Below are positions 19,434 to 50,631 of a stretch of 64,000 nucleotides of DNA, piece by piece (position 1 is the stretch's first letter; each line of letters opens with the position of its first letter). The notes beneath the pieces were generated by a model. The model was given only the letters and a program-made list of their open reading frames with translations, made no database searches and was not told the DNA's origin. Position numbers and translations under genes: made by a program. Origin of the DNA: Actinernus sp. WN-2022 (taxonomy: Eukaryota > Cnidaria > Anthozoa > Actiniaria > Actinernidae); assembly GCA_030867875.1 (NCBI GenBank), contig JAOWCC010001751.1:24110369-24174368 (forward strand). Direction: 5' to 3'.

Positions 19434-19605
19434 GTTCGTATTCGAAAATTACCGCTGAATGCAATGACTACAGACGCATGTACGCAGGGTTAGCCTCATT
19501 CTGAAGTTAAACATTCATTGATGCCAGCGAGCAGGTGGGCTATTCACAACAGTAATCTATTCTATAACACTCGCAGTCGTATTTAGGTATGGGATAAATA
19601 TTGAG
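19434..19605. repeat. outer terminal repeat of the second DIRS-like element (left)
   Basis: Positions 19434-19493 (ATTCGAAAATTACCGCTGAA...) are the inverted copy of 24925-24985. Positions 19551-19605 (AATCTATTCTATAACACTCG...GGGATAAATATTGA) recur directly at 20981-21044. Inverted outer ends plus internal copies are the DIRS terminal layout. Confidence 0.7.
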
Positions 19606-25863: not shown

Positions 25864-27291
25864 TTACATGCATGTGCAGTGGCTGGGAGGACAGTTTCCA
25901 AGAGCACAGTTATTTGTACACCAGGTATCCATGTGGGGGCCATCGAACGGAGGCACCCCCACGCAGTTTCCTCCCGGACCTACCGTTGGCGGCGGAGGAG
26001 GAGGAGGTCTTGCAGTTGGAGGAGGAGGGGGAGGAGGACCCTGGGTTGGGACAGGTGGTCCACCGGTAGGTCCCATTGTTGGCGGGGGTGGGGGTACTCC
26101 AGTAGGAGGTGGTGGAGGTGTATATCCACCCAGATACCTCTTCACAGCATTCATCAGCGGATACTTGCCCTTGCCACAGAAGGTCCCCTTGAAATCATCC
26201 AACGGAAGCGCCCAAAACATAGCCCCTGCCAAACCTTTCTTTTTAATAACTTGCTCGACCTTTAAAGACAAGCTGTACTCGTCATCAAATCCAACCCAGT
26301 TAGTACTCCAACCGTTACCATAGTGACCATAGGGAGCCTTCACTGCGCTGTCTTGAGATTGAGTAATCTTTAGCGGCAACTTGCAGATTTCGTAATACGA
26401 CAGGAAACCTGCCTCGCGGGTGAACTGACCTTTCTGTGGGTTACCGCGAGCTGGAGCACCAAGACCAGTTTGGTCAGCCTTTTCCAGTTTAAAGGCTCGT
26501 CCGTACGTGCCAAGACCAAGGGCGATTTTATTTGCTGGGGCACCCTTATCGATCCAGTACTGGGCAGCAAAGGTCACTGTTAGAATGTCACCAGGGGGGC
26601 CAACGAGAGCGGTGTGGTGACCAGTTTCTGAGTCCCACTTGCCATGTAGATCGTAGGCCATCAGGTTAATCAAGTCGAGAATCTTGCCGATCTTTTCCAC
26701 TTCGTATGCCTTGTCGATGGTGTTCTTTCCTGCGGACACGGCCGCGGTAAGAAGCAATCGAGGTTTTCCCGTCTCTGCACTTTCCTTAATAAAAGCATCC
26801 ATTAACTCCTGGCAGAGGACCGTGAACCTCTGTTTGTCTGATGGAGGGGAACCACCACGTGTTCCGGGGTACTCCCAGTCGAGGTCAAGACCATCGAATC
26901 CCCACTTTCGAAGCATTGCTATCGTTGAGTCGATGAATACCTTCCTGGTTGATGCAGTCTTCACCATCCTTGAAAATGGACTGTTGGCGTTCTCGTGATT
27001 CCATCCACCAACTGCAAGCAGGGTCTTCAAACTTGGATTTTTCATCTTGAGGGCGTTAAACCTCGGGTACAGCTTATCGTCATTCCACTCGAACATTGCC
27101 AGTTTGTTGTTTGGGGCGATCTTTGCGAAGGAGTACATCAGATGAGTACAGAGCTCCGGTGGGATATCCTCAGGCCAAAATTTTCCTTGACCTGGGCGAT
27201 ACTGTGACCAGTTGGTGTGATAACACACACGGACATAGTTGCCCGCGGCGTACGAGACGAAACCCAAGAGGAGAACTGTCAGTAACTGCAT
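25864..27291 (-). CDS. secreted GH18 chitinase with Pro-rich linker and Cys-rich tail
   Basis: Single-exon gene of 475 codons. The ATG at 27289-27291 is preferred: the frame extends 12 codons further up, but only to a GTG. The protein starts with a signal peptide (about residues 1-17, hydrophobic [15 protein letters not shown]). The GH18 barrel (about 19-385) has LLAVGGWN, the catalytic DGLDLDWE at 133-140 with the acid Glu140 intact, NLMAYDLHG, and [12 protein letters not shown] near the end. A Pro/Gly-rich linker (about 391-440) leads to a six-cysteine tail (C443, C458, C462, C467, C472, C474) with [15 protein letters not shown], probably a small disulfide domain that may bind chitin. It should hydrolyse beta-1,4 GlcNAc polymers outside the cell, for defence, feeding or matrix turnover. 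The lack of introns is unusual for an animal chitinase and could mean retroposition or horizontal origin. It is not a catalytically dead chitinase-like protein. Confidence 0.93.
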
Positions 27292-27342
27292 GCCTCCAAG
27301 TGTCCCTGCTAGCTGAAGTGATTTCACAAGAGCTGCTAGCTA

Positions 27343-30300: not shown

Positions 30301-30828
30301 CAGAAAAAGAGGAAACATTTTGTTCTTTTAGAGAATCTGGAAGTTATTGCCAAGAATCGTTTGCCATATAAGATACTGTAATAGTTTGTTTGCCAGTGTT
30401 TGTTCTAACAGACGATTTATACAGATTTTTTTAGAAGCGTATCTGGTGTATGAATGTACATCACTTGCGTAGCGAAGATAATTTTTAAATGGGAGTGGTA
30501 ATTGATTTTATGCCATAAATGGCATAAAGAACTTGCAAGGCAAGTTGCTAAGACGGGCATTTCACAGAGTAAGAGTGTTTCAGTTTCTCAAATGCTAGCA
30601 GATAAACTTCAAACTTTGACCACAAGCTCATGACATGTCTTTGTACTGTTTACACACAATTGGTAAGGCGTTGAGCTTGAAGATCAACAATATGTCATTG
30701 CAGCTTGTAAAAGAACACACTTCTCCTAAACCAGTGACATGCAAGCTGAATTAACTGAACTAGTTGTTCTTTGTTTCATAGGATCGAGTTCTTCGTTTGA
30801 AAAGATTAAAATGCTTCAAGTGACGATA
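27352..30828. other. intergenic; no gene seen
   Basis: It should hold the chitinase upstream region. Notable are a run of about 20 C with one T (29741-29763), a G run (30197-30212), and an inverted pair AATTTACGATAGTTTA / TAAACTATCGTAAATTT at 29825-29948 (hairpin of about 120 bp). The short frames show no family motif. Confidence 0.45.
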
Positions 30829-31150
30829 AGTAGTATAGGAAGTGGGGGTTCTGGGTTTATAGTGAGAACACTTTGCCAAAAATACCACATTTTTACAGTA
30901 CCCACAATTCTTTTTGTCGATCCTTGTGTTTCGGCATGAAGTAGACTTTGGAAGACAAGGCAGCAAAGTTGGGGTAGCCAGGGCCACGAAGTAGTCTTTG
31001 GAAGACAAGGCAGCGAAGTTGTGGAAATTGTGGAAATGGTGTGGAAATTGTGGAAAACGAATGTGGAAATTGCGGGGAAAATATGTAGAGAATTGCAACA
31101 ATATATAGAAAATTGTGGCGAACAGGTAGGAACACCTATTAATTAGAGAA

Positions 31151-32041
31151 ATGGGAACACAAGTATATATCGGTAGGAATACATCTGTCGAGAGAAGAAC
31201 CATGCCAGGAAAAAGCAAAATTCCACCCTCGGCCTACGGGGAGATACGAATGGGCAAGCTAGGATTCCGAGAGGCTAGGAGGAGCTACGGGATTGGACAC
31301 GCACGATACAAAAAGATCCAGCAAGGAGAGGAGGCTCCCCCTTCTATCGTGCCCCCTCCCATTTCCTTCCGGAGGCTCGAGCAGGACACCAGTGGCGAGA
31401 TTCTCGACGATCTCCAAAGCGTGCAACAAGCCCGCCCGGACCTATTCCTATCCCACGAAGAATACAAGCTTTTGGCGGGGGCGAAAGATGCAAAGCAGTC
31501 CTACACTTTTGCCCATCTACGAGATTTCCCTCGACAGCTTCGCGAGCTCTATAGGCTACAGTACCACTATTTCCTAGCCTCTGGGTATGTACAGGACATC
31601 GTGGATATGCGAGTCCACGAAAGCGGTAGGGCCGGCTTCGTATCCTTCGAACGGCTTCTACTACCAGAAAGCTACGAACGGTTTCTACAACCAGGATTCT
31701 ACGAGCGGCAGCCCCTCGAGCAACTGCCCAGCCCCGCGAATTCGCTGGAACTGGATGGCGGTGCACAGACATCGGCAGTCGAGCCCCTCGATACTACTTG
31801 CCGCTGCGGATCCAAAAACCATAGAACCCATAGCAAAGTGTGTATACTCGAAAGGCAAAGCATACGAGAGACCGGAGACTCGCATACTACACCTGCGCGA
31901 GAAACACCCAGTTTGGATCCGGAGGAGCAGCAAGAGACCGAGGAGGCGCAAACTGCGCTTGCGCGCGATATCGACGCCACAGAGGAGCAAGAGGACCTGT
32001 TGCAGCTGCCAAAACGGATTCTGGCCAACAAAGCAGTGTGA
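31151..32041 (+). pseudogene. element ORF, copy A, stopped early
   Basis: The 296-residue frame is the same as the first 296 residues of the copy B protein apart from a handful of substitutions (S/N, S/P, T/A, L/S). Codon 297 is TGA here and TGG in copy B, and a second stop (TAG for TAC) follows 44 codons on, so this copy has lost the last 70 residues. The cysteine-histidine cluster CRCGSKNHRTHSKVC (residues 217-231) is kept. Function unknown. Confidence 0.75.
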
Positions 32042-32394
32042 AACATCGAAAACAAAGACGATATATGTTTGTACTGGTCTGTTCGAACGGCCACGAAATT
32101 GCGAAACCTCCAGGCGGCATGTCTGTGTGGCAAAGGAGACGATTGTATCTGGCAACGGATATAGGCTACGCGAGTCGCAAAAACAAGAGCAAAAAGAAGT
32201 AGGAAGGCACCAAAAGCAAAGCAACAAACCAAAAGCAAAGCAACAAAGCAACGAACCAAAAGCAAAGCAAAGCAAAGCAACAGGAAAAAGCAGAGCTACG
32301 AACATATTGCAAAGCTCCGAACATATTGCAAAGCTACAAACATATTGCAAAGCTACGAACCATATTGCAAAGAGCAAATGCAATCCAAAGAAGA

Positions 32395-33030
32395 AGAAAT
32401 ATTCGAGCATACAGGCCACCATGGACAAACGCAAAACGAATGCAATCCAAAGAAACATACAAGCATGCAGGCCACCAGCGACAAAAGAAGACAAAATGCA
32501 ATCCATAGGCAGCAACATCCAAGCATGCAGACCACCATGGACAAAAGCAGACAAAATGCAATCTATAGGAAGCAACATACGAGCATGCAACCACCATGGA
32601 CAAACGATTGATTGCAATCCACAGAAGAAACATACGAGCATGCAGACAAATGCAATCCATAGCAGAAACATTCCAGCATGCAGACCACCAGCGACAAACG
32701 CACAGACAAATGCAATCCATGGCAGACCACCAGCGACAAACGCACAGACAAATGCAATCCATGGCAGACCACCAGCGACAAACGCACAGACAAATGCAAT
32801 CCATGGCAGACCACCAGCGACAAACGCACAGACAAATGCAATCCATGGCAGACCACCAGCGACAAACGCACAGACAAATGCAATCCATGGCAGACCACCA
32901 GCGACAAACGCACAGACAAATGCAATCCATGGCAGACCACCAGCGACAAACGCACAGACAAATGCAATCCATGGCAGACCACCACAAACAAACGCACAGA
33001 CAAATGCAATCCATGGCAGTACTATCCAAG
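32395..33030. repeat. minisatellite: 60-bp units grading into 42-bp units (copy A)
   Basis: At 32395-32660 the period is about 60 bp (CATGCAGGCCACCA...GACAAA...ATGCAATCCA). From about 32690 to 33010 there are about 7 units of exactly 42 bp (ACCACCAGCGACAAACGCAC...ATGCAATCCATGGCAG). The 42-bp unit equals the 60-bp unit without its AGAAACATACAAGCATG-type segment. Both lengths are multiples of three, so most frames stay open across the array without being genes. Confidence 0.9.
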
Positions 33031-33682
33031 ACTAGCCAGACGCTGGAATGCTAGACTATCTGGCCAAGGCAACACAAGGCCATCCTCGTTGCACAACGAA
33101 GGAGTCTCGTCGTCGTCGTCTCGAACAAGAAACAATGGTCCAAGAGCAAGAGCACAACACAGAGCTTTCCCCACACTTTCTACTCCAACATCCTCCACTC
33201 CAACGCAGCACAACGCTCCTTTCCCTTTTTTCGGCAAGGCGAGGTATTCCTCCAAAGTCGTCGCGGCTGCACCCGAAGACACCGCTATTGCCATAGCATC
33301 CCTCCAGGCCTGTATTGGATAGAACGATGGCCACTTTCCCCAAGTACCACACACTCGTAGCATAGCCACTTTTCTGTATACCTATACCTATACTCTGCAG
33401 ATAGGAGATTTCCCCAAGAACTGTATACTCCGTATACCCTATACATAGGAGAGCTCCAATTGCACATTCCTACTAGGGAATCCAACCAAAGATCCCGACC
33501 AATAGGAAGAAAACAAAAGGAAGCGCAATCGCAAGGCCTTGGCCATGAAGTAGACTTTGGAAGAATTTTGGAACAACAACGATGCTTGGCCACGAAGTAG
33601 ACATTGGAAGAATTTTGGAACATTAGCAATGCTCGGCTACGAAGTAGTCTTTGGAAGAATTTTGGAACGACAGCAATGCTCG

Positions 33683-35259
33683 CCGACCTCAGCTTTCACA
33701 AGCCACACTTTGGTAAAAAAACGCATTCATATTTTTTTTTCGCTTTTCCTGGCAAAATCTTTTAAACCGTGATGCACTCCAATTGAAAACTAGTACTCCA
33801 CTCACTACTGCATGCCATGCCAGAGGCAGTCAACTATATATTTACTCAAAGTAACTGTAACTTTTGTAAGGTTCTTCGGGGGTTCTTGTAAAGGTCTTGA
33901 CTTGAGAATAAGACCGTAGTTGGTTCTGTTCAACTGGAGCAAATGAGATTCTTAATATGACCATACATACAGTGACGTCATACCTATGTGACGTCATAAA
34001 GGTAAGGGGAGGGGTGGTGTGCATATGAAAAAAATATAGAATTACTAAAAAATTCTAAAATTAAATACATTTTTGCTAAATTTATTAATACCGATACGAT
34101 ACACATTTACAATTTCAAAGTCACAATAGCTTGTGAAAATTCATTTATTGAAGCCGCGCATGCGCCAAAATTTGCAACGGCTAACGAACTTTCGATCACG
34201 ACTCATATCAGCTGTGTTAATAATGGCGGAGCTTGAGGGCCGAATTCAGCAAACAATATATCTACTGACCTATAGTAGGGCCGACACAGAAATTTCCCAA
34301 CAGAGAAAGCTTTTCCCAAGCCGTTATCGAAGGATGGGAGCAAAATAGCAACAAGGTTATTCAATGGGTGGTTTCTTTAGAGGGTCACGCAGAGCTTGAA
34401 GAGCCAAATCTGGAAACGAATCGCTACCACTATTACATGGCTCTGAAGTTAAAGACGAAATCAAGGTGGTTGAATGTAAAAAGATATCTATATTGAAATG
34501 GGGGAGGGCGGTTGGTTAAAAATAGCCCTAAATTGCTAAGAGGTCCGACTTAAATGGCAGGCATCTAGGCATCAAGGTCATCAAGTCCTACTCCATAATG
34601 AGATGCCTTTATTGGCATAAACCAATATATTCGTTCCTGTATCTGTCATGTTATGTCATGTTAGGGCCAATCAGAATGCTTAAAAGGGTGAACTTCTGCA
34701 AACCCCAGAAGCATGTGTCATAGCGTTGCCGCTGACCGATTTACAGTACTGTAGTTACCAGTTTCTACTCGTGTATCAGGAGACAGTACTCGCGGAATAA
34801 CTGCGGACTAGATCGATTGATCTTCCGGACTATTTTCATAATACTATTTTGTACTATAGTATTAATTTTCATTTATTAATGCGTAAGCAATTTACTATTT
34901 AAAATAGTTCTCCGCATCTGAGAAAATTTCCGGATTCTGCCAGTTTATGTTTTACCCACTCGCTGCGGTCTACAGCCGCCCATGCGGTCAGGATTTCAAA
35001 TACTCTGACCTTATTTCAGACAAAAATGTGTAATTTACATGTTTTGTCAGACGAAGGAATTCCATATCACATTTCAAACGAAAACAAAAACGGTATCGCA
35101 TGAAACGCATAGCATTTATCAAATGAATGAAATAAATATATAATAGATTTGAAAGATGAAGTAATGAGGAGGCCTCGTTTTCTATGTCGATCAATTATAT
35201 CTGTAAATAGTTTTAAATAATAGTTACAATAGTTATTAATAGTTTAATTGTTATAATTT
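33683..35259. other. intergenic; no gene seen
   Basis: At 34980-35170 there is a dispersed repeat (CTGACCTTATTTCAGAC ... CATGAAACGCATAGCATTTAT) that recurs at 37290-37650. The small frames are unconvincing. Confidence 0.45.
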
Positions 35260-35345
35260 AATTGTCAGGGCTCCTATTGATAGCACTCACATTTTGTAAC
35301 TGAAGGGACTACCCTGCTTAAATAAAGGTTTATTCATTCATTCAT
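35260..35345 (+). repeat. LINE 3' tail
   Basis: GGGACTACCCTGCTTAAATAAAGG is followed by TTTATTCATTCATTCATTCA. A LINE-type 3' end with a short tandem tail, here without its body. Confidence 0.6.
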
Positions 35346-35544
35346 TCAAGCGTTTTTCGGTTGCATGAATTGATTGTTTTCTGAGGACACCTTCGGAAAA
35401 TATCACAGTTAACAATAGTTTTTTTTTATCATTTTATCCGCCGCGGGATCAAAACAAACGTTGGAAAACTTTCTCAAAAACTAAATCCATCTTCTGTAAC
35501 GGCGTTCCTTAATTTCATACAGCACTACCACAGCAATAACAGGC

Positions 35545-35995
35545 TTTACAGAATTTGTAGTGAAACATTCCGTTACAGCACACTCTTTGTTTTGCCAATG
35601 ACTACAAATGGAAGCGAAAGAAAGGAATTCATTATCAGCTATGCCGAGCTAGCACCGAAACTTTATAAATAAACTTCCCGTACATCACCCTCTTTGATTT
35701 ACCAGTGACTCCAAATGGAAACGAAAGAAAGAAATTCATTATCAGCTATGCCGAGCTCCGAAACTTTATATGTAAAACTTCCCGTTACAGCACACTCTTT
35801 GTTTTACCAGTGACTCTAGAAAGAGAAGCGAAATAAAGGAATTCATTATCAGCTATGTCGAGCTCCGAAACTTTATAAATACCTGTAAAACTTCCCGTTA
35901 CTGCACCCGCTTTGTTTTGCCAGTGACTACAAATGGAAGCGAAAGAAAGAACTTCATTATCAGCTTTCCATGCTGCAGAGCTCCGAAATGTCATA
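35545..35995. repeat. about 115-bp tandem repeat, 4 diverged units
   Basis: Each unit contains CACTCTTTGTTTTGCCAGTGACT, GGAAGCGAAAGAAAG, TTCATTATCAGCTATG and GAGCTCCGAAACTTTATA. A fifth, more diverged unit lies at about 36675-36775. The units are about 3 kb upstream of the TPR-CHAT gene. Confidence 0.85.
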
Positions 35996-38740
35996 AGAGC
36001 GGTTATGTTATGATCCGTTATGTCGGATCCGTTATTGCACATTATCAACTTAATTGATACTATCATGTCGAGTTTTCGCTTAAAAACTCAAGATTGCTCA
36101 AGTTATACCAATTAATTCGTTTCAAGGCTGACGGACCAGAACTCTTCAGTATATAATTATAGGCCAATATCTATATTCTAGCAGTGGTTAACAAGAATAT
36201 AGAACCAGTACATACATGTAGTAAATATTTATTCATTTAAATATCAATACATTTCATTTTTTCTTCTTTTTGATCATTTTGTTTGCTATTATTATTGTAA
36301 ATATATTTTCATTATAACTTTCGCAAGCGCCCTATACATACTGACAGACACGAGCGATAACACGAAACTTGATCAGTAGCCGACTGACAACAATACCATT
36401 TTTGTAATGTGAACAGTTTTTGCTGAGTCTTTAAAGGGGAAAAAGGAAGAATAATTGTGTAGAGATGAATATTGAGGCTTGTTTTAGAAACTTCTAATAT
36501 AAGCCGCATTTGCTCATTTAAAATAGAGACTTGGGGCAGGTGGGAGTCAATATTAATGTTGATTTCTAGCTCTTTCTCTGCCAACAGAAGTCTTTCGTGG
36601 AAAACTGTAATAGTTAAGGGAAAATGAAGCCAGGCTTTTCAGCAGCAACAGTAAAGCTTGCTCACGAGCAAACACTATGATTTGCCAGTATTTATAATTC
36701 TATGATAAATGAAAGAAAAAGGAAGGAAGTCATGATCAGCTATCACAGCTCCGAAACACAATCAGGGAATGCCAGTTCCAATGCGATATAGGACGCAAAG
36801 GTTTTGATACTTTAAAAGAGTTTCTCCAGATTACTCCAAATTAAGGTATATACATTGTACATGCCTTAGTATAAGGGTTGAGTTGTTGTACATCTACTAG
36901 GAGCGAGATACAATGTTAAAAATATTAGAGGTAGAAGAGAGAGACCCATGTGAGACCCAATATGAAAGCGAATTGGTTATACGCCCACAACAAATAGCAG
37001 CATTATTAATTGCTTGGCATAGGATAGGATGTTAATTAGGTGTTTGATTACTAAAATGTTATAACAATTTTGCAGGTTTATGACTTTATATATAGAAAGA
37101 GGCCATGTTTAGCTGTGCAATTATTTTACAGTTTTAGTAATGAAAAGTGGATCACACTCCTACATTAAAAATGTTATTTTTCACATCATTCTGTAGGCTT
37201 TAACAAATACCCTAGGGCCTAGCCTACCTTGAAAACTGGCCAACGTTATTTTTAGGCAGGACATTTACTAGATAGGGACGTGCCAGCGGGATTTCAAAAC
37301 CCTGACCTTATTTCAGACCAAACTTTGTGATTTTCATACCCTTAAGTTCAGACTTGACCCCCAAATTCTGGAACCTATTTTTCCCTTTGGTTTATTCTGT
37401 TTGTAAATTTACTCTTAAGATGAATAACCAAACGATACTATTTCGGACCAGAAGAAGGACTTTCTTGCCTATTTCAGACTAAAACAGTACATACCAATAT
37501 AGATTATTTAGAAGAGTATATATATCCCCCGACCCCCGGACATTCTTTGACTGAAGAGGGAATTCCACGTTAAATTTCAAGCGAAAACGAAAAACGAAAT
37601 TGCATGAAACGCATAGCATTTATGAAATAAAAATATAATCGATTTGAAAGATGAATAGAAAAATTAATTAGGTAGAAAATCTCAGAATTGAAAGATATGT
37701 GGCGCTACTATACTGGGACAAAGCGGGTTGCTTGCAGAATATAAAAATTGCTGGTGAATTGGGGTTTAGTTGCTCTGATATTTTACAAGCAAGTAAAAGG
37801 GATATCTCAAGTTTTATTTGCTCAAAATCTACTAAAAGAGTTTTGAGTAGAAATCCAAGATGGCTGCGGATGTGATCACTGCCCCAATTCATACAGTAAT
37901 CAACGGTAAGCTTGATATCAAGCTGAAGTAATTGCTTTCTGAACACGCTGTTGTAAGCTCATCATATTTAACAATCATTTAATTTTTAATTTGAGAAAAT
38001 ATTTCTCAAACTCATTAATAATTCATGGCATAATCAGCCAACCAGGATCTCGTATTGGAAACCCAATGAAACACCAGTTCACAAAACACAAGTTCAACAT
38101 ATTTCCCTAAAGAACACACTACTTTTTTTCCTCGAACACTTCTGTCCTTCAAAGATCGATGCTGTATAAAATTCCTCCCTCACATGGATTCACCTCGAAA
38201 ACTAGCTCTCAAACTATCAGTAATACTTAAATGTTTTGAAACGAAGCATGCTCTACTCAAACTAAAGTATGCACGGCATTGTTTCCATTCAAAGTTGTTC
38301 GCATCATAAATTAAGCCCGCAAACCGCCTTCAGAATAAACTTCGGAGCTGGTAACGAATAACGCAAAAATTACTCATACTTTCGAAATATCAGTCCAATT
38401 ATCGAACTGTAGTATTAAAGAATCACTGCCGTCTTATTCAATCTATAATTTTGGCACAAGAAACCAATTTGCAAACCTTTTACCTCAGCTTAATGAGGAG
38501 ATGTTAATATTAATGATCGAAGGGAACGTTTTTTAAAAGATCAGAACTATATGATAGTTAATTAGAATTTAAAATCTTAACAATAGAATCTGACAAATGT
38601 TTAAGGTAAAAAATCAAATCCATTGCAGATGAATTAACGTTATTACCAGTACATTGCCACTGCTAAAAGACTCATGCAAGCGACATGAGAAACATATTAA
38701 TAGATACTTCCTACCCTTAACAGAACAACACAATATTAAG
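35996..38740. other. upstream region of the TPR-CHAT gene; no gene seen
   Basis: It includes the second copy of the TTTCAGAC repeat (37290-37650). Shortly before the TPR-CHAT ATG, TTGCAG at about 38623-38628 and TTACCAG at about 38643-38649 are possible splice acceptors, so an upstream non-coding or short coding exon cannot be excluded. Confidence 0.4.
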
Positions 38741-41700
38741 ATGGCAAACTCTTGCCGTATCTTGGGAAGCGCCAACACAGGAAAGAATAAAGGAAAAGCA
38801 ATGGCTTATGTACCCCTGGTAAACGAGTATGATTCAATATCTGAGGCCATTCAGTATCATGACAAAAAACTAAACATCGCCAAAGAGATATCTGACAGGT
38901 CCGGCGAGGCGGGAGCATATGGAAACTTGGGAATCGCCTATAAGTCATTAAGCAAATACCACGAGGCCATTCAGTATCATGAAAAGCATCTCAACATCGC
39001 CAAAGAGATATCTGACAGGTCCGGCGAGGGGCGAGCATATGCAAACTTGGGAAACGCCTATCAGTCATTAGGCAAATACCACGTGGCCATTCAGTATCAT
39101 GAAAAGCATCTAAACATCGCCAAAGAGATATCTGACAGGTCCGGCGAGGGGAAAGGATATGGAAACTTGGGAAACGCCTATCAGTCATTAGGTAAATACC
39201 ACGAGGCCATTCAGTATCATGAAAAGCATCTCAACATCGCCAAAGAGATATCTGACAGGTCCCGCGAGGCGGGAGCATATGGAAACTTGGGAATCGCCTA
39301 TAAGTCATTAGGCAAATACCACGAGGCCATTCAGTATCATGAAAAGAATCTAAACATCGCCAAAGAGATATCTGACAGAGCCGGCGAGGGGCGAGCATAT
39401 GCAAACTTGGGAATCGCCTATAAGTCATTAGGCAAATACCACGTGGCCATTCAGTATCATGAAAAGCATCTCAACATCGCCAAAGAGATATCTGACAGGT
39501 CCGGCGAGGGGCGAGCATATGCAAACTTGGGAAACGCCTATCAGTCATTAGGCAAATACCACGAGGCCATTCAGTATCATGAAAGGCATCTCAACATCGC
39601 CAAAGAGATATCTGACAGAGCCGGCGAGGGGCGAGCATATGCAAACTTGGGAAACGCCTATAAGTCATTAGGCAAATACCACGAGGCCATTCAGTATCAT
39701 GAAAAGCATCTCAACATCGCCAAAGAGATATCTGACAGGTCCGGCGAGGGGCGAGCATATGCAAACTTGGGAATCGCCTATAAGTCATTAGGCAAATACC
39801 ACGAGGCCATTCAGTATCATGAAAAGGATCTCAACATCGCCAAAGAGATATCTGACAGGTCCGGCGAGGGGCGAGCATATGCAAACTTGGGAATCGCCTA
39901 TAAGTCATTAGGCAAATACCACGAGGCCATTCAGTATCATGAAAAGCATCTCAACATCGCCAAAGAGATATCTGACAGGTCCGGCGAGGGGAAAGGATAT
40001 GGAAACTTGGGAAACGCCTATCAGTCATTAGGTAAATACCACGAGGCCATTCAGTATCATGAAAAGGATCTCAACATCGCCAAAGAGATATCTGACAGGT
40101 CCGGCGAGGCGGGAGCATATGGAAACTTGGGAAACGCCTATCAGTCATTAGGTAAATACCACGAGGCCATTCAGTATCATGAAAAGAATCTCAACATCGC
40201 CAAAGAGATATCTGACAGGTCCGGCGAGGGGAAAGGATATGGAAACTTGGGAAACGCCTATCAGTCATTAGGTAAATACCACGAGGCCATTCAGTATCAT
40301 GAAAAGGATCTCAACATCGCCAAAGAGATATCTGACAGGTCCGGCGAGGCGGGAGCATATGGAAACTTGGGAAACGCCTATCAGTCATTAGGTAAATACC
40401 ACGAGGCCATTCAGTATCATGAAAAGAATCTAAACATCGCCAAAGAGATATCTGACAGAGCCGGCGAGGGGCGAGCATATGCAAACTTGGGAATCGCCTA
40501 TCAGTTATTAGGTAAATACCACGAGCCCATTCAGTATCATGAAAAGGATCTCAGCATCGCCAAAGAGATATCTGACAGGTCCGGCGAGGGGCGAGCATAT
40601 GCAAACTTGGGAAACGCCTATCAGTCATTAGGCAAATACCACGTGGCCATTCAGTATCATGAAAAGCATCTCAACATCGCCAAAGAGATATCTGACAGGT
40701 CCGGCGAGGGGCGAGCATATGCAAACTTGGGAAACGCCTATCAGTCATTAGGCAAATACCACGAGGCCATTCAGTATCATGAAAAGCATCTCAACATCGC
40801 CAAAGAGATATCTGACAGGTCCGGCGAGGGGCGAGCATATGCAAACTTGGGAATCGCCTATAAGTCATTAGGCAAATACCACGAGGCCATTCAGTATCAT
40901 GAAAAGGATCTCAACATCGCCAAAGAAATATCTGACAGGTCCGGCGAGGGGCGAGCATATGCAAACTTGGGAATCGCCTATAAGTCATTAGGCAAATACC
41001 ACGAGGCCATTCAGTATCATGAAAAGCATCTCAACATCGCCAAAGAGATATCTGACAGGTCCGGCGAGGGGAAAGGATATGGAAACTTGGGAAACGCCTA
41101 TCAGTCATTAGGTAAATACCACGAGGCCATTCAGTATCATGAAAAGGATCTCAACATCGCCAAAGAGATATCTGACAGGTCCGGCGAGGCGGGAGCATAT
41201 GGAAACTTGGGAAACGCCTATCAGTCATTAGGTAAATACCACGAGGCCATTCAGTATCATGAAAAGGATCTCAACATTGCCAAAGAGATATCTGACAGGT
41301 CCGGCGAGGGGCGAGCATATGCAAACTTGGGAATCGCCTATAAGTCATTAGGCAAATACCACGAGGCCATTCAGTATCATGAAAAGCATCTCAACATCGC
41401 CAAAGAGATATCTGACAGGTCCGGCGAGGGGAAAGGATATGCAAACCTGGGAAACGCCTATCAGTCATTAGGTAAATACCACGAGGCCATTCAGTATCAT
41501 GAAAAGGATCTCAACATCGCCAAAGAGATATCTGACAGGTCCGGCGAGGGGAAAGGATATGGAAACTTGGGAAACGCCTATCAGTCATTAGGTAAATACC
41601 ACGAGGCCATTCAGTATCATGAAAAGGATCTAAACATCGCCAAAGAGATATCTGACAGAGCCGGCGAGGGGCGAGCATATGGAGACTTGGGAAACGCCTA

Positions 41701-44356
41701 TCGGTCATTAGGCAAATACGACGAGGCCATTCAGTATCATGAAAAGCATCTCAACATCGCCAAAGAGATATCTGACAGGTCCGGCGAGGGGCGAGCATAT
41801 GCAAACTTGGGAATCGCCTATAAGTCATTAGGCAAATACCACGAGGCCATTCAGTATCATGAAAAGGATCTCAACATCGCCAAAGAAATATCTGACAGGT
41901 CCGGCGAGGGGCGAGCATATGCAAACTTGGGAATCGCCTATAAGTCATTAGGCAAATACCACGAGGCCATTCAGTATCATGAAAAGCATCTCAACATCGC
42001 CAAAGAGATATCTGACAGGTCCGGCGAGGGGAAAGGATATGGAAACTTGGGAAACGCCTATCAGTCATTAGGTAAATACCACGAGGCCATTCAGTATCAT
42101 GAAAAGGATCTCAACATCGCCAAAGAGATATCTGACAGGTCCGGCGAGGCGGGAGCATATGGAAACTTGGGAAACGCCTATCAGTCATTAGGTAAATACC
42201 ACGAGGCCATTCAGTATCATGAAAAGGATCTCAACATTGCCAAAGAGATATCTGACAGGTCCGGCGAGGGGCGAGCATATGCAAACTTGGGAATCGCCTA
42301 TAAGTCATTAGGCAAATACCACGAGGCCATTCAGTATCATGAAAAGCATCTCAACATCGCCAAAGAGATATCTGACAGGTCCGGCGAGGGGAAAGGATAT
42401 GCAAACCTGGGAAACGCCTATCAGTCATTAGGTAAATACCACGAGGCCATTCAGTATCATGAAAAGGATCTCAACATCGCCAAAGAGATATCTGACAGGT
42501 CCGGCGAGGGGAAAGGATATGGAAACTTGGGAAACGCCTATCAGTCATTAGGTAAATACCACGAGGCCATTCAGTATCATGAAAAGGATCTAAACATCGC
42601 CAAAGAGATATCTGACAGAGCCGGCGAGGGGCGAGCATATGGAGACTTGGGAAACGCCTATCGGTCATTAGGCAAATACGACGAGGCCATTCAGTATCAT
42701 GAAAAGCATCTAAACATCACCAAAGAGATATCTAACAGGTCCGGCGAGGGGGTAGCATATGCAAACTTGGGAATCTGCTATTTGATATTAAGTCGATACT
42801 ACAAGAAGAGAAATGAAAACGAAAGCTACCACGATACCATACTAACATCGGAGAGGTTTTTGAAGGCGAGTTTGCGATGTTGGGAGTGGTTGTTTGATAA
42901 CTTACAGGAGCAAGACCAATTTAAGATCTCCATTTTTGACACCTTTATTGATGTGTTCAAATATTTGACACATGTACTGATTGAGACCCACCAAATAGAA
43001 GAAGCTCTTCTTGTGTGTGAGCGTGGACGAGCCCGTGCCTTGGGCGATATTTTGATGTCAAAATATAATATTACTCCGGAAAATGCCTCGAGGGGTGATT
43101 CACTGAAGTATTCCGATGTTGAGATGATATTGTCGAGTGGTTATTTTTCCATGATCCTCTTTTTTACACTTATGGACATAGATGTGGCTGTTTGGACTTT
43201 AACACATCAAATCCCATTGATGTTTAAGGCGATGAATCTGATCACAGGATCTGAATCTACCATAGACAAACTCGTGGCTGCAGCCTATGGTAAATTGAAT
43301 GTCAGAGGATTGAAATGCGAGGACAGATCACTGGAGGTACCTGAAAGTTCGCATGCTAATAATGACGGGAAGGGTATTGGGAAGCAATCGTCGTTGTCCT
43401 CAGGTGAAAGAAGCGAGACCATGAAAGAAGAACAGAGTAACAAATATAACTCTAAACCTCGCATAAGATGTATATTCAGAAAGGAGCAGCATACATATCC
43501 ACTCAATAAATTGTTTGACCGATTAGTGGCTCCTGTACAACATAGCTTTACGAAGGACGAGGTTATCATAATTCCAGATGGCTCTCTGTACACGGTGCCA
43601 TTTGCAGCCCTACAAGATCCCAAGACAGGATTATTTCTCTCGGAAACTAAGCGCATTAGGTTTGTTCCCTCACTAACAGCATTAAGGGCTTTGCAAGAAT
43701 GCCAAGCAGATTATCACAGCAGGACAGGTGCACTGGTTGTTGGAAATCCTAAAGTAGGAGAAGTAATGTTTAGAGGCGACACAAGAAAGTTTCCATCTCT
43801 GCCATGCGCAGAAGAGGAGGCCAAGAAGGTTAGCGAGCTACTGGGCGTGCCACCATTGTTAGGACCCCAAGCAACAAAAGAGGCGATCAAGAAAATACTA
43901 CAGAAGGGCGTGGCTGTCATACACATTGCAGCACACGGAAATACAGAAGGAGAGATTGCACTGGCCCCATGTGCTTCAACATCAACAAGAAGTATTCCGG
44001 AAGAAGAGGACTACATCTTGACAATGAGGGAGGTACAAGCAATTGGTATTCGAGCGCAGCTGGTTGTCCTGAGCTGCTGTCACAGCGGTCGTGGTGAGAT
44101 CAAGGCAGAAGGAGTAGTTGGGATGAGCCGAGCGTTTCTTGCCGCAGGAGCCCGCTCTGTCCTAGCATCATTGTGGGCTATTGAGGACCATACTACCATG
44201 GACTTCATGTTGAGCTTTTACTCGTATTTGAAGAGTGGAAAGAGTGCTAGTACAAGCCTGCAGCAAGCCATGAAGGAAATGAGAGAGAAATACAGCAAAC
44301 CAAGGGACTGGGCCGCTTTCTTTCTTATCGGTGATGACGTAATAATCAGTGTATAA
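38741..44356 (+). CDS. giant TPR-CHAT protein (caspase-like CHAT protease)
   Basis: 1871 codons in one exon. The ATG at 38741 (AAGATGG, good context) is chosen; the frame is open earlier, but only to a TTG. Residues about 58-1370 hold 32 TPR units of exactly 40 residues ([20 protein letters not shown] then [10 protein letters not shown]) and a degenerate capping unit, of the LGN/kinesin-light-chain type. After a helical linker with [13 protein letters not shown] (about 1426), the CHAT domain (about 1590-1868) follows: [16 protein letters not shown], then VIHIAAHGN with His1732, then VVLSCCHSG with Cys1780, then [17 protein letters not shown] and [10 protein letters not shown]. Both catalytic residues of the caspase-like fold are present, so it is probably an active cysteine protease. 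In prokaryotes TPR-CHAT proteins act in defence (for example with type III-E Cas effectors); in corals the family is expanded, with unknown role. The TPR solenoid would bind a partner or trigger. It lies between inverted element copies. No AATAAA was seen close to the stop. Confidence 0.92.
38881..42780 (+). repeat. 120-bp coding tandem array, 33 phases without indel
   Basis: CAAAGAGATATCTGACAG recurs at 38881 and every 120 bp to 42721 (there with an A/G change), with no insertion or deletion in between. Higher-order copies are visible: 40761-41751 and 41721-42711 are identical at a shift of 960 bp (8 units), including private variants such as CAAAGAAATA and GCAAACCTGG. 39961-40200 and 40201-40440 repeat at 240 bp. 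Confidence 0.97.
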
Positions 44357-44552
44357 GAACTTCACCATCAGCAAATGGTGACTAATATCGTATCTAATAA
44401 TCAAGAGGTAATTATAATACGAACAGAGGTGAATATTTCGACTGTTATCAGTATTATTTTGGTCTGTAGCTGTAAGAACTTAGTTTGCATAGTATGTTAT
44501 TTAGCTGCTGGGAGATTCGTATAGAGAAAACACTATGCCCGGGGTGTTGAAT
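44357..44552. other. 3' flank of TPR-CHAT gene
   Basis: AT-rich, with several TAATAAT words but no canonical AATAAA close to the stop codon. Confidence 0.4.
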
Positions 44553-44697
44553 GTACGTACGGACCGGACCGCGTGTGTACGTACGGACCGGACTGCATGT
44601 GTACGTACGGACCGGACCGCATATGTACGTACGGACCGGTCTGCATGTGTACGTACGGACCGGACTGCATGTGTACGTACGGACCGGACTGCATGTG
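44553..44697. repeat. 24-bp tandem repeat with GTACGTAC core, 6 units
   Basis: The unit GTACGTACGGACCGGACTGC plus ATGT is repeated six times with C/T variants. Each unit contains the palindrome GTACGTAC and a near-palindrome CGGACCGG. The frames through it are low-complexity artefacts. Confidence 0.92.
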
Positions 44698-45319
44698 TGA
44701 CAGAAATGTGGCTGCTACGTCAGAATCTCGGCACAAACTTTGTAAAAAGTGTCATTTCCACTGGGATGAGGCGCTAGGATACGGTGATAGTGGTCAGATA
44801 GAGAAAATACCGTCCGCTCTAGGATCCAATCAGATTGCAGGACATATATACTTGGTTACGGTCCTCTCGCACACAAAAACAAAATGACTAGTATTGGTTA
44901 TTTTGACGGTATATATGTTTTATTTCTAGACTACTTTAAAAACGTTTTCCCATTTTAATATTGTAATGTGCATTTGACCGTTTAAAGTGCCTATAACCCT
45001 TCTTGCAATTTTCATAATGAATCTCCGAAAAGTTTTGAGTACTTGTGTGAAGAAAGTTTTGGTTTACGCTTGTTTGAAATCGTGTAAATTTGACCTTTCC
45101 TGACCCATGACCGCGTAAGTAAAAGCCCGAGTCGATTCCTGATTAGACGTCGTATAACTAATTCGACTTTGCAATAATTTGAAGAAATACTTCAAATGTT
45201 GACTAAAATGACTTTTTTTATCTTTACTAACAACATTGGCTCTTACTAATGCTCATTCTTACGCGTATTCTGGTTGGCCATACAACTGTGTGATTGTTAT
45301 GACGGGCAGTTCAATAGAG
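44698..45319. other. non-coding; one arm of the 16.2-kb MITE family at 44985-45170
   Basis: TTTAAAGTGCCTATAACCCTTCTTGC through CGAGTCGATTCCTGATTAG is a diverged single arm of the foldback element at 16159-16699. The rest is unassigned. Confidence 0.6.
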
Positions 45320-46130
45320 GCCGCATATGTTTCTGCGTTTGTCGATGGTGGCCTGTGTGTTTGTATGTTTCTGCTTTGGTTCGCATTTGTTTCTGCGTTT
45401 GTCGATGGTGGCCTGTGTGCTTGTATGTTTCTGCTTTGGTTCGCATTTGTTTCTGCGTTTGTCGATGGTGGCCTGTGTGCTTGTATGTTTCTGCTTTGGT
45501 TCGCATTTGTTTCTGCGTTTGTCGATGGTGGCCTGTGTGCTTGTATGTTTCTGCGTTTGTCGATGGTGGTCCTTGCTTGTGTGTTTGTTCTTCGAACTGG
45601 TGGATTGCATTTGTTTCTGAGTTTGTCGATGGTGGCCTGTGTTTGTATGTTTCTGCTTTGGTTCGCATTTGTTTCTGCGTTTGTCGATGGTGGCCTGTGT
45701 GCTTGTATGTTTCTGCGTTTGTCGATGGTGGTCCTTGCTTGTGTGTTTGTTCTTCGAACTGGTGGATTGCATTTGTTTCTGCGTTTGTCGATGGTGGCCT
45801 GTGTGTTTGTATGTTTCTGCTTTGGTTCGCATTTGTTTCTGCGTTTGTCGATGGTGGCCTGTGTGCTTGTGTGTTTCTGCTTTGGTTTGCGTCTGTTTCT
45901 GCGTTTGTCGATGGTGGCCTGTGTGCTTGTATGTTTCTGCTTTGGTTCGCATTTGTTTCTGCGTTTGTCGATGGTGGCCTGTGTGCTTGTATGTTTCTGC
46001 TTTGGATTGCATTTGTTTTGTGTTTGGCCATGTTTGTATGTTTCTGCTTTGGATTGCATTTGTTTTGCATTTGGCCATGTTTGTACGTTTCTGCTTTTGT
46101 CGATGGTGGTCTGTGTGCTTGTATGTTTCT
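45320..46130. repeat. 60-bp minisatellite beside element copy B
   Basis: The unit TTTCTGCGTTTGTCGATGGTGG...TGTATGTTTCTGCTTTGGTTCGCATTTG repeats with a 60-bp period, exact in 45361-45540, with shorter variant units to 46130. It is the complement of the 60-bp unit inside copy A at 32395-32660. It lies outside the terminal 46-bp repeats of copy B, so it may be the remnant of a third, adjoining element. Confidence 0.92.
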
Positions 46131-46894
46131 GCTTCCGAGCATTGCTGTCGTTCCACAATTCTTCCAAAGACTACTTCGTGGCCAAGCATTGCTGTCGTTC
46201 CACAATTCTTCCAAAGACTACTTCGTAGCCGAGCATTGCTGTCGTTCCACAATTCTTCCAAAGACTACTTCGTAGCCGAGCATTGCTGTCGTTCCAAAAT
46301 TCTTCCAAAGTCTACTTCGTGGCCAAGCATTGTTGTTGTTCCAAAATTCTTCCAAAGTCTACTTCATGGCCAAGGCCTTGCGATTGCGCTTCCTTTTGTT
46401 TTCTTCCTATTGGTCGGGATCTTTGGTTGGATTCCCTAGTAGGAATGTGCAATTGGAGCTCTCCTATGTATAGGGTATACGGAGTATACAGTTCTTGGGA
46501 AAATCTCCTATCTGCAGAGTATAGGTATAGGTATACAGAAAAGTGGCTATGCTACGAGTGTGTGGTACTTGGGGAAAGTGGCCATCGTTCTATCCAATAC
46601 AGGCCTGGAGGGATGCTATGGCAATAGCGGTGTCTTCGGGTGCAGCCGCGACGACTTTGGAGGAATACCTCGCCTTGCCGAAAAAAGGGAAAGGAGTGTT
46701 GTGCTGTGTTGGAGTGGAGGATGTTGGAGTAGAAAGTGTGGGGAAAGCTCTGTGCTGTGCTCTTGCTCTTGGACCATTGTTTCTTGTTCGAGGAGACGAC
46801 GACGACGAGACTCCTTCGTTGTGCAACGAGGATGGCCTTGTGTTGCCTTGGCCAGATAGTCTAGCATTCCAGCGTCTGGCTAGTCTTGGATAGT

Positions 46895-47215
46895 ACTGCC
46901 ATGGATTGCATTTGTCTGTGCGTTTGTTCGTGGTGGTCTGCCATGGATTGCATTTGTCTGTGCGTTTGTCGCTGGTGGTCTGCCATGGATTGCATTTGTC
47001 TGTGCGTTTGTCGCTGGTGGTCTGCCATGGATTGCATTTGTCTGTGCGTTTGTCGCTGGTGGTCTGCCATGGATTGCATTTGTCTGTGCGTTTGTCGCTG
47101 GTGGTCTGCCATGGATTGCATTTGTCTGTGCGTTTGTCGCTGGTGGTCTGCCATGGATTGCATTTGTCTGTGCGTTTGTCGCTGGTGGTCTGCCATGGAT
47201 TGCATTTGTCTGCAT
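46895..47215. repeat. 42-bp minisatellite, about 7 units (copy B)
   Basis: Complement of the 42-bp unit of copy A, with nearly identical units (CTGCCATGGATTGCATTTGTCTG...). All three forward and reverse frames are open, giving artefact frames rich in Cys/Trp or Gln/Thr. Confidence 0.92.
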
Positions 47216-47403
47216 GCTCGTATGTTTCTGCTGTGGATTGCATTCGTTTGTCCATGGTGGTTTACATGCTCGTATGTTGCTGCCTATGGATTGCATTTGC
47301 TCTTTGCAATATGGTTCGTAGCTTTGCAATATGTTTGTAGCTTTGCAATATGTTCGTAGCTCTGCTTTTGCCTGTTGCTTTGCTTTGCTTTGCTTTTGGT
47401 TCG

Positions 47404-48504
47404 TTACTTTGTTGCTTTGTTTTTGGTTTGTTGCTTTGCTTTTGGTGCCTTCCTACTTCTTTTTGCTCTTGTTCTTGCGACTCGCGTAGCGTATATCCGT
47501 TGCCAGATACAATCGTCTCCTTTGCCGCACAGACATGCCGCCTGGAGGTTTCGCAATTTCGTGGCCGTTCGAACAGACCAGTACAAACACATATCGTCTT
47601 TGTTTTCGATGTTCCACACTGCTTTGTTGGCCAGAATCCGTTTTGGCAGCTGCAACAGGTCCTCTTGCTCCTCTGTGGCGTCGATATCGCGCGCAAGCGC
47701 AGTTTGCGCCTCCTCGGTCTCTTGCTGCTCCTCCGGATCCGAACTGGGTGTTTCTCGCGCAGGTGCAGTATGCGGGTCTCCGGTCTCTCGTATGCTTTGC
47801 CTTTCGAGTATACACACTTTGCTATGGGTTCTATGGTTTTTGGATCCGCAGCGGCAAGTAGTATCGAGGGGCTCGACTGCCGATGTTTGTGCACCGCCAT
47901 CCAGTTCTAGCGAATTCGCGGGGCTGGGCAGTTGCTCGAGGGGCTGCCGCTCGTAGAATCCTGGTTGTAGAAACCGTTCGTAGTTTTCTGGTAGTAGAAG
48001 CCGTTCGAAGGATACGAAGCCGGCCCTACCGCTTTCGTGGACTCGCATATCCACGATGTCCTGTACATACCCAGAGGCTAGGAAATAGTGGTACTGTAGC
48101 CTATAGAGCTCGCGAAGCTGTCGAGGGAAATCTCGTAGATGGGCAAAAGTGTAGGACTGCTTTGCATCTTTCGCCCCCGCCAAGAGCTTGTATTCTTCGT
48201 GGGATAGGAATAGGTCCGGGCGGGCTTGTTGCACGCTTTGGAGATCGTCGAGAATCTCGCCACTGGTGTCCTGCTCGAGCCTCCGGAAGGAAATGGGAGG
48301 GGGCACGATAGAAGGGGGAGCCTCCTCTCCTTGCTGGATCTTTTTGTATCGTGCGTGTCCAATCCCGTAGCTCCTCCTAGCCTCTCGGAATCCTAGCTTG
48401 CCCATTCGTATCTCCCCGTAGGCCGAGGGTGGAATTTTGCTTTTTCCTGGCATGGTTCTTCTCTCGACAGATGTATTCCTACCGATATATACTTGTGTTC
48501 CCAT
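47404..48504 (-). CDS. element ORF, copy B, 366 residues, unknown function
   Basis: ATG at 48502-48504 opens a complete 366-codon frame. The N-terminal 60 residues are basic (KLGFREARRSYGIGHARYKK), possibly DNA- or RNA-binding. A middle helical part follows (LRDFPRQLRELYRLQYHYFL). Next comes a zinc-binding-like cluster CRCGSKNHRTHSKVC at 217-231, of a CxCGSxxHxxHxxxC type that I associate loosely with eukaryotic mobile elements. An acidic Glu/Gln segment (256-282) precedes a second cysteine group (C324, C326, C332) and a Lys/Ala-rich tail. I do not recognise any catalytic domain. Copy A carries the same protein but stops at codon 297. The near-identity of two copies implies recent movement or gene conversion. 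Confidence 0.65.
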   Translation of the reverse strand: MGTQVYIGRNTSVERRTMPGKSKIPPSAYGEIRMGKLGFREARRSYGIGHARYKKIQQGEEAPPSIVPPPISFRRLEQDTSGEILDDLQSVQQARPDLFLSHEEYKLLAGAKDAKQSYTFAHLRDFPRQLRELYRLQYHYFLASGYVQDIVDMRVHESGRAGFVSFERLLLPENYERFLQPGFYERQPLEQLPSPANSLELDGGAQTSAVEPLDTTCRCGSKNHRTHSKVCILERQSIRETGDPHTAPARETPSSDPEEQQETEEAQTALARDIDATEEQEDLLQLPKRILANKAVWNIENKDDMCLYWSVRTATKLRNLQAACLCGKGDDCIWQRIYATRVARTRAKRSRKAPKAKQQTKNKATK

Positions 48505-48937
48505 TTCTCTAATTAATAGGTGTTCCTACCTGTTCGCCACAATTTTTTATATATTGTTGCAATTCTCTACATATTTTTGCCGCAATTTCCACATTCGTTT
48601 TCCACAATTTCCACATCCATTTCCACAATTTCCACATCTTCGCTGCCTTGTCTTCCAAAGACTACTTCGTGGCCCTGGCTACCCCAACTTTGCTGCCTTG
48701 TCTTGCAAAGTCTACTTCGTGGCCCTGGCTACCCCAACTTTGCTGTTTCGCTTTTTTGGGGAAAAAAGAGACTACTTCGTGGCCCTGGCTACCCCAACTT
48801 TGCTGCCTTGTCTTCCAAAGTCTACTTCATGCCGAAACACAAGGATCGACAAAAAGAATTGTGGGTACTGTAAAAAATTGGTATTTTTGGCAAAGTGTTC
48901 TCACTATAAACCCAGAACCCCCACTTCCTATACTACT

Positions 48938-50631
48938 CGATATTAACTCATAGAGGCTGCGCGCACCTGACTCGGGCCGTATGGATAACTAATTTTATAG
49001 CTAGTTTTGACTCCTTATCTTAATCTGCCTGCATAAATCTGCCCCGATATCGTGTTTCGAGACGCTTTAACGGATTTTATTGTGGTACTCAGAAGGACTG
49101 CTTGTGGCTAAACTCTGCTCTGGCTGACTATCCGTCCGTTTTCCAACTCCCTTAACGGTAATGCGTCGCGCCTTTTCTAGTCCTGCGCTAGAGTCCCACC
49201 GGGCCCGACGCTGTCAAACCGGTTTCTTCGTTCCTTTCTGGATTCGGCGTAACGGCCGTGAGAAAACGTTACTGAACTTGAGATTGGTTCGGCGTCTCTT
49301 GGACGTATTAAACATGAAAACCTAAGCATCTACCTACTGTAAATCTCGATCATTTATCAACCACCCGAAACCGTCTCAGGATGGAGACCTTGTGCTCCAT
49401 ATAAAATTATCCCAGTCTTACATCTAGACTTCCTGGGGAAAAGGTATTGAATCACTAATGACCCCTACTGGAAATTTATCGCGTTTATCTGAATTCCATT
49501 CAATGTCTCGGTCTATACTGCGCAGGATCGAGCAAGGTCGAGAGACTGATTAAACGCGTTTACTTACCGTTAGGATCAAGCTACGCGGTCGCCATACAGG
49601 TCGCCGTAAATTTAAACATTAACGGAGTTACATACATTAAGTATCCTTTCAAAACATATCATCGATTATTCAAATCTTCACCCAAATGTGTTGTTACAAT
49701 TACATTAGACCTGTTGTCATCACTGTTTGAATGTGCTCAGTTTTGTTCCAAAGCAAGAATTGCAGAAAAGTATCAAAATATTCATATATTTTTGGGTCTA
49801 TAAAAAGTTCCTTACAAAAATAATAAGGTTGGGAAAAAGTCAATAGGAAAATGGAATGCGGAAGTATCTTAGAAACTAGTTTAACCCACATCGATAACAC
49901 GGTAATGGCCTATTATGCAATTTCCCACTTGTGACACCGGAAAGAACAGCCCATTTTATTTTATCAGTAATTTTGATGTATTTGTTAAGAAAAGGCATTT
50001 CACGATTTTAGACAAAATTCTACGTCAGGAAAACATAGATTATACAGTTATAGTTTAGCGCACTACATTGTATATTTGAGAAACTTTAATTCAAACTTTC
50101 TTCTGTTGAACTAGGTTTGGATTTGTATGAGAATAGTCCAGTACGAGCCTCTATTCACTAAGGCTACTTTTGATCAATTGACAACATTGAATATAACTTA
50201 TTTTCCAAGAGCCTCTTCCACTTACCGACATTAAGATTTACATTTATTAAGCTTATTACTATTTAGAGATCATGACAACAAGCCAATAGAATTTGAGTAC
50301 TTTTAATTACAGTTCCGTTCTTTAAAAGTACTATATAGATTGAGCTAAAAGATAAACAAACAGTCAGATATTATTTTTTCATTAAGTTGTATTGAACTGA
50401 AGAGCATGGGGCCAATACAAATTAGTTACCAACTTTAAGTGAGATTTCTACGGAAATATCTAACGTTGTCAAACCAATCTGCAAGCCAGTCATGAAACTA
50501 CTCTAGCCCCGGGCTATCACACACAACATTAATTGTGTTGTACCCTGCTGTGGACCCTCCCTTACTCTCTCCCAAGACTAGTATATAGAGGATATTACAT
50601 GCCGCGCGGATATGCGGAATTTATCTTCGAG
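48938..50631. other. no gene seen; compositionally odd segment to about 49620
   Basis: 48960-49620 is less AT-rich and richer in CpG than its neighbours (CCCACCGGGCCCGACGCTG, GCTACGCGGTCGCC) yet has no long frame, repeat or RNA gene I can identify. From 49620 on it is ordinary AT-rich sequence. Confidence 0.4.

Follow-up and report, generated by a model that had tools for sequence, protein, structure and literature searches.

Within a 64-kb stretch of the Actinernus sp. WN-2022 genome (contig JAOWCC010001751.1, positions 24,110,369 to 24,174,368; hereafter the window, whose own numbering is used throughout), we find a gene for a giant protein of tetratricopeptide repeats (TPRs) and a C-terminal CHAT domain, enclosed by an 18.1-kb transposon. 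Our preferred explanation, to which we assign a joint probability of about 0.62, is that the gene is an intact member of the TTC28-like family, that its product is a probable working protease gated by a binding partner, and that this copy is carried in the transposon. Judging from sequence and a predicted model, the gene's probable product is a functional cysteine protease related in type to separase and Csx29. Its architecture, fold and catalytic dyad, the purifying selection on the CHAT domain of the family and the variation between units in the TPR groove were all obtained by computation. The family itself is known; new here are the survey of dyad retention, its comparison with arthropods and the probable capture of the gene by a transposon.

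Architecture of the TPR-CHAT protein

The reading frame (38741–44356, + strand) translates into 1871 residues without a stop codon and has no intron inside it, as anticipated by an original prediction made from the DNA letters, which had described an unbroken 5.6-kb frame. From stop to stop it spans 1907 codons, the longest open frame among the CHAT matches listed for this 1.39-Gb genome, at least 136 in number (all whole-genome match counts are lower bounds). The label "giant" is apt in that respect, but the protein is one of many of its kind in this genome and in corals.

A tandem TPR array is followed by a linker (42893–43498, +) and a single C-terminal CHAT domain (PF12770; 43499–44335, +; residues 1587–1865), which is the architecture of TTC28-like/TPR-CHAT proteins. 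The predicted model of the linker contains helices, the ERGRARAL motif starting at residue 1427, three strands within the putative pseudo-protease portion described below, and then a low-confidence loop at residues ~1546–1583. The CHAT domain is delimited by Pfam and by the predicted fold, and its Pfam match (E 1.4e-58, 199 bits with a cut-off of 24) is far above chance. The linker motif, the domain and both residues of the dyad were located as originally described: His1732 (codon 43934–43936, +) lies within IAAHGN, and LSCCHSG supplies Cys1779 and Cys1780 (codon of the latter 44078–44080, +). Since 120 bp, the length of a TPR unit, is divisible by three, the openness of the frame across the array is partly self-fulfilling; the CHAT domain and its low ratio of nonsynonymous to synonymous substitution rates (dN/dS) are therefore the stronger evidence of intactness. 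Right before the ATG, positions 38705–38740 hold a pyrimidine-rich stretch and a CAG that resemble a splice acceptor, so that a 5′ untranslated region or an upstream exon may precede the frame.

Predicted fold and catalytic dyad

Structure prediction of the linker and CHAT domain was confident (predicted template modelling score, pTM, 0.86) and yielded a caspase-like fold. Its structural neighbours are Csx29 (Craspase), separase, DdvA and a SAVED-CHAT filament; the 35 best matches also include a single axonemal chain. Predicted strands at residues 1726–1730 and 1774–1777 precede His1732 and Cys1780, respectively, and sequence alignment pairs these two residues with H615 and C658 of Csx29. Mutation of H615/C658 abolishes Csx30 cleavage, according to the accessible part of the published report (PMC10028731). 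The original prediction had placed the dyad in the positions used by caspase-like peptidases; the alignment and the CHAT protease fold of the model agree with this, and the comparison with known CHAT structures did not refute it.

Structural alignments to separase and Csx29 cover model residues 5–487. Because they extend over the linker, we infer that the linker portion is a pseudo-protease region, giving a putative domain order of TPR, pseudo-protease, protease. Model confidence is lower at and after Cys1780 (predicted local distance difference test, pLDDT, 73 for model residues 391–400 and 63 for 401–410). By analogy with Csx29, such a stretch would fit a catalytic loop that is set by a partner. 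We also considered Cys1779 as the catalytic residue and rejected it: Csx29 and DdvA have an alanine there and their cysteine at the position of Cys1780, which is also where the commonest bacterial motif, LSACxTG, places it.

Both structural relatives differ from the present protein beyond the shared fold. Csx29, a component of a type III-E CRISPR system, has only 751 residues with a short TPR part, is bound to Cas7-11, is triggered by RNA and shares ~13% identity with it. Separase, whose fold is matched by the predicted one, has no sequence match to the TPR-CHAT protein at E ≤ 1; it carries other N-terminal repeats and is a single essential gene.

Retention of the dyad among relatives

Of the 121 sequences aligned for structure prediction, 119 have both the histidine and the cysteine. 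The pair is likewise present in 240 of the 244 complete CHAT domains from the closest relatives listed, and 58 of 61 CHAT domains in this genome (60 paralogs and the window) have it too. The 244 domains belong to 241 proteins, namely the window protein, the best 120 of 1400 matches and the best 120 of 2340 matches, with 18 matches that are gapped at the dyad positions set aside. The 60 paralogs were picked by hand, and hence non-randomly, from the at least 136 genomic matches across contigs and scores, and four matches bearing stops were excluded.

Arthropod TTC28-type proteins from a long-protein search (13 named by organism, two nameless ones assigned by inspection) present a different picture. 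They belong to the same family and combine a TPR array with CHAT, but have a long tail beyond the CHAT domain. Only two of the 15 keep both residues; the cysteine is gone in the other 13, eight of which, all dipterans, have lost the histidine as well. None of the matches in this search was named as vertebrate. Since the dyad is readily lost elsewhere in the TTC28 family, its retention in cnidarians carries weight.

Two further observations concern CHAT proteins outside animals. The green alga Chara braunii has a 2248-residue protein, P0322, whose CHAT domain bears a cnidarian-like LSCC motif. Of 79 prokaryotic CHAT loci, 12 come from one chlamydial genome bin, OFTM140, where they lie on separate small contigs (L009, L010, L012, L013, L014, L016, L017, L018, L024, L026, L030 and L050); they point either to an expansion in the bacterium or to contigs of foreign origin within the bin.

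The TPR array and variation in its groove

The array comprises 33 tandem 40-residue units of the LGN/GPSM2 type (38843–42802, +; residues 35–1354), the last of which is degenerate; the original prediction was right about the tandem 40-residue units and one short in their number, which it gave as 32. DNA identity between units is 94%. Units 17–24 (40763–41722, +) and 25–32 (41723–42682, +) are base-for-base identical over 960 bp, repeating the unit string HOJKPQRS. Because of this exact identity, the array length probably reflects fast turnover, or partial mis-assembly. A predicted model of the last ten units shows regular helix pairs (pTM 0.74) and has its best Foldseek matches in LGN/GPSM2, whose partners sit in the TPR groove. 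A profile search of PDB sequences returned TPR proteins in the best 60 of 252 matches. The array was also considered as a non-coding simple satellite, which is ruled out by Pfam, the predicted fold and the dN/dS of CHAT.

Amino-acid differences between units occur mainly at TPR positions 2, 5, 9, 12 and 27. The first four belong to the published set of positions lining the concave ligand face (2, 5, 9, 12, 13, 33 and 34; PMC1261162, accessible part). Mean entropy at positions 2, 5, 9, 12 and 13 is 0.96 versus 0.27 overall (permutation p 0.00025), and the excess is also found in 81 relatives with at least 8 units found (p 0.00065). The proportion of nonsynonymous differences (pN) is 0.224 at these five groove positions and 0.027 elsewhere, with a synonymous proportion (pS) of 0.065. 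Counted as changes seen per possible change, nonsynonymous variation amounts to 7/29 in the groove and 13/232 elsewhere (p 0.003). An overall pN/pS of 0.78 among the units could be taken for weak constraint throughout; this is accounted for by the split between positions, although tests on synonymous sites stay weak. The sound reading of these sequences is that the binding face has tolerated divergence between units or has been favoured to diverge, and that the other positions have resisted it.

Family membership, copy number and selection

By sequence, the gene is a TTC28-like TPR-CHAT member, of a family already reported as strongly expanded in corals. Its nearest named relatives are TTC28-like or hypothetical proteins of sea anemones (Actinia, Actinostola), with ~50–56% identity over linker and CHAT, followed by coral proteins with ~40–44% identity over the same region. 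All named members of the closest listed relatives are cnidarian; the animal origin that had been supposed is supported, and the relatives place it in a hexacorallian. In a CHAT tree, the 34 sampled domains of the cnidarian set (eight chosen, 25 random and one from the long-protein search) form one group with a support of 0.982, whereas a sister relation of cnidarian and arthropod CHATs with respect to nameless and bacterial sequences was not resolved (supports 0.336 to 0.858).

Among the at least 136 CHAT matches in this genome, two are parts of the same frame, 85 lie within 100 kb of another match and four have a stop inside the CHAT domain. Matches on some small contigs duplicate, with equal scores, those on long contigs, so that haplotype duplicates may inflate the count. 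Comparing the window with the 15 closest of the paralogs retrieved gives a CHAT dN/dS of 0.21–0.51; the ratio is 0.21–0.44 for the eight nearest (dS 0.05–0.10), has a median of 0.381 among the 13 closest sequences (0.134–0.621; 78 pairs) and a median of 0.306 over 706 pairs with dS 0.02–1. These ratios, drawn from paralogs within a single genome and not from a set of related species, are well away from the value near 1 that the original prediction had considered damaging. They demonstrate purifying selection on the family; constraint on this very copy is not proven thereby.

For corals, the accessible part of PMC12314368 reports 276 and 304 TPR-CHAT genes in two Acropora species and 15 in Nematostella, with TPR lengths from tens to thousands of residues, and places the expansion in corals after their split from Actiniaria; tandem duplication is a route already reported for corals. 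TTC28-like genes are likewise described as expanded in Montipora (PMC9145168), and apoptosis has been suggested for TPR proteins with CHAT in Pocillopora damicornis (PMC6208414), as far as the available text of these two papers goes. The family described in the three papers resembles the present one in the long TPR array followed by one C-terminal CHAT, in the large clustered expansion and in the strong variation of TPR length. With at least 136 CHAT matches in a sea-anemone-like genome, the expansion is therefore not confined to corals. In their accessible parts, the coral studies count, place and compare the genes, and the main text of PMC12314368 does not use the words protease, catalytic or histidine. 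A literature search over titles and abstract openings, covering few subscription journals, found no report on the catalytic state or activity of animal TPR-CHAT proteins.

A transposon encloses the gene

The gene lies within a transposon with long terminal inverted repeats (TIRs; 30829–48937), which the original prediction had missed. It is bordered by the target-site duplication CGATA on the left (30824–30828) and on the right (48938–48942), with unrelated sequence outside; the chance of such a 5-bp match between the flanks is 0.0011. The left arm (30829–33687, +) contains tandem repeats and an inward-facing open reading frame (ORF). In the right arm (45322–48937, −), positions 46136–48937 pair with the left arm and 45322–46136 form an extra tandem array of the arm type. 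Complementarity between 30829–33687 and 46136–48937 reaches 98–100% in the longest blocks, and the outer ends of both arms start AGTAGTATAGG. The arm ORF encodes an orphan protein of 366 residues in the right copy (47404–48504, −); the left copy (31151–32041, +; 296 residues) stops where the right one reads on. With terminal inverted repeats and a target-site duplication, the element has the hallmarks of a TIR DNA transposon.

It is not alone in this genome. Two further inverted pairs with the same terminus, at C235:49743145-49751248 (8.1 kb) and C888:71483709-71501421 (17.7 kb), have perfect 5-bp duplications of their own (CTGCG and GGGCT), so that all three inverted pairs examined carry them. 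The orphan ORF has at least 151 matches in the genome, and the 87 places used include 39 inward-facing pairs at most 25 kb apart. The pair in the window is the widest of the 39 and the sole one with a listed CHAT between its members, both lists being lower bounds. These elements make up a family in this genome, marked by large size, TIRs, target duplications of 5 bp and an inward arm ORF. The right-arm ORF has no Pfam match, reaches only E 0.081 against PHROG and E ≥ 0.55 against PDB, and has no match in IMG/VR; a repeat-rich arm frame has a weak match to a phage-tail protein (E 1.1e-5). No transposase of a known superfamily was recognised among these matches. Scans of viral contigs found neither the transposon terminus nor relatives of the CHAT domain.

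The interior (33686–45324, +) consists of the gene and flanks that are homologous to paralogous TPR-CHAT loci, and we read it as captured host DNA. Homology to one paralog (L106) begins at 33686, the end of the left arm, and homology to another (L105) ends at 45324, the start of the right array; in the remaining loci the homologous stretch is shorter, starting at ~34983 or beyond and ending somewhere between 45014 and 45234. Six paralog loci were covered, from 20 kb upstream to 10 kb downstream of CHAT. Neither arm has a match in any of them at E 0.001 (positive controls: four element loci). We accordingly rejected the idea that these arms spread the nearest paralogs (six of six loci lack them). 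Most simply, a member of this element family would have taken up 11.6 kb of host DNA, the entire gene included, the order of events being deduced from the present arrangement.

Repeated DNA is also found beside the gene. The segment 34983–38017 upstream of it is found again in the six paralog loci, frequently in several copies, and has a left edge near 34983 (TGCGGTCAGGATTTC) that these loci share. The segment could represent a small transposon of older date or a control region common to the loci. The gene's right flank (44982–45234) is a dispersed repeat with a 72% copy at 16431–16699 and others near paralogs.

Gene capture by DNA transposons is familiar as Pack-type transduplication. The present element resembles it in that its terminal inverted repeats enclose what we read as host DNA, including a complete gene, and differs in its arms of 2.9 and 3.6 kb, each with an orphan ORF, and in the 11.6 kb captured. 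Polinton/Maverick elements make 6-bp target duplications and encode DNA polymerase B and an integrase; the target duplications observed here are 5 bp long.

A model for protein function and its alternatives

We propose that a partner protein or peptide would lodge in the groove on the concave side of the extended TPR superhelix and that a conformational (allosteric) change would be transmitted via the pseudo-protease linker, bringing His1732 and Cys1780 into register and completing the dyad. One specific protein substrate would then be cut, following the logic of Csx29 with a different trigger. This TPR-CHAT copy would have been brought to its present site as captured host DNA in the 18.1-kb TIR transposon. 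Because a fungal TPR-bearing CHAT protease activates gasdermin, a pore-forming protein is a fair first guess for the substrate, and no more.

Several observations count against this interpretation. One dyad residue is gone in three of the 60 paralogs, and the relatives were retrieved by shared words, leaning to conserved sequences, so that dyad retention is possibly overstated. The invariant cysteine among relatives is Cys1779 (121/121 in the model alignment and 61/61 in this genome) and not Cys1780, and a different role for the CC pair is possible. In the array, position 27, the second most variable, falls outside the ligand-face set, and adding positions 33 and 34 raises the permutation p to 0.0037 here and to 0.006 in relatives. 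The groove signal depends on few substitutions: tested against all synonymous changes, the nonsynonymous changes in the groove give p 0.059, or 0.11 for variants present in at least three units. Such positional variability is moreover general among TPRs, according to the accessible part of PMC1261162. Finally, assembly error could contribute to the exact 960-bp duplication.

Compatible with the partner-gated protease, and tentatively entertained by analogy, is a role in innate immunity or cell death, in which variable TPR arrays would recognise foreign or modified partners in the manner of NLRs. The numerous, clustered copies and the groove variation between units point this way, as do the membership of Csx29 in a CRISPR system and the TPR-bearing CHAT protease of Podospora anserina, which activates gasdermin (accessible part of the review PMC12881547). 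Expansion alone is, however, compatible with many roles, and no gasdermin domain was found in the Pfam-scanned frames, which are a part of all frames in the window.

We consider it unlikely that the gene is a dead or dying copy, i.e. an unexpressed, transposon-borne duplicate that by chance is still open. Its location, the in-domain stops in four CHAT matches and the recent turnover indicated by the identical 960-bp duplication would suit such a fate. Against it stand the intact frame and CHAT motifs, the presence in the interior of upstream sequence common to paralogs, and the dN/dS to the eight nearest paralogs, a ratio that averages both lineages and is blind to a very recent loss of constraint on this copy.

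That the protein is a pseudoprotease scaffold, which keeps fold and dyad and binds without cutting, as supposed for human TTC28, strikes us as rather improbable. The accessible part of PMC12314368 describes human TTC28 as acting in cytokinesis and calls its TPR and CHAT functions poorly understood; the loss of the cysteine, and often of the histidine, in arthropod TTC28-type proteins also favours a scaffold. The near-complete dyad in the closest listed relatives and in this genome, together with purifying selection on CHAT, argues for the protease instead.

Least credible is that the arms are two independent insertions flanking a gene that was never in a mobile unit, as the arm-free paralog loci and the 38 of 39 arm-ORF pairs that enclose no listed CHAT (again from lower-bound lists) might suggest, since separate insertions would not have one common target duplication, two other pairs have duplications of their own and paralog homology stops at the inner arm edges.

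Beyond the partner-gated protease carried in a transposon, a more far-reaching idea, which we regard as a long shot, is that a family of giant TIR transposons took an intact, catalytically competent TPR-CHAT sensor-protease and its flanking control region as cargo. Such elements could multiply immune-type proteases, while unequal exchange and selection on the groove would retune the recognition of each copy.

Other features of the window

On the − strand, a 487-residue frame (25864–27327) encodes a full GH18 chitinase domain (E 6.3e-93). Pfam identifies reverse transcriptase fragments at 19601–20608, 21240–22109 and 61588–62595.

Implications

A sea-anemone-like genome now joins those of corals in having tens to hundreds of TPR-CHAT genes. 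The near-universal dyad in the sampled cnidarian copies, set against its loss in most of the arthropod TTC28-type proteins sampled, lifts the family beyond a curiosity of copy number and yields a testable claim, namely that animals possess a large family of active, partner-gated proteases. The transposon, in turn, offers a definite means by which such a gene may be moved, beside tandem duplication.

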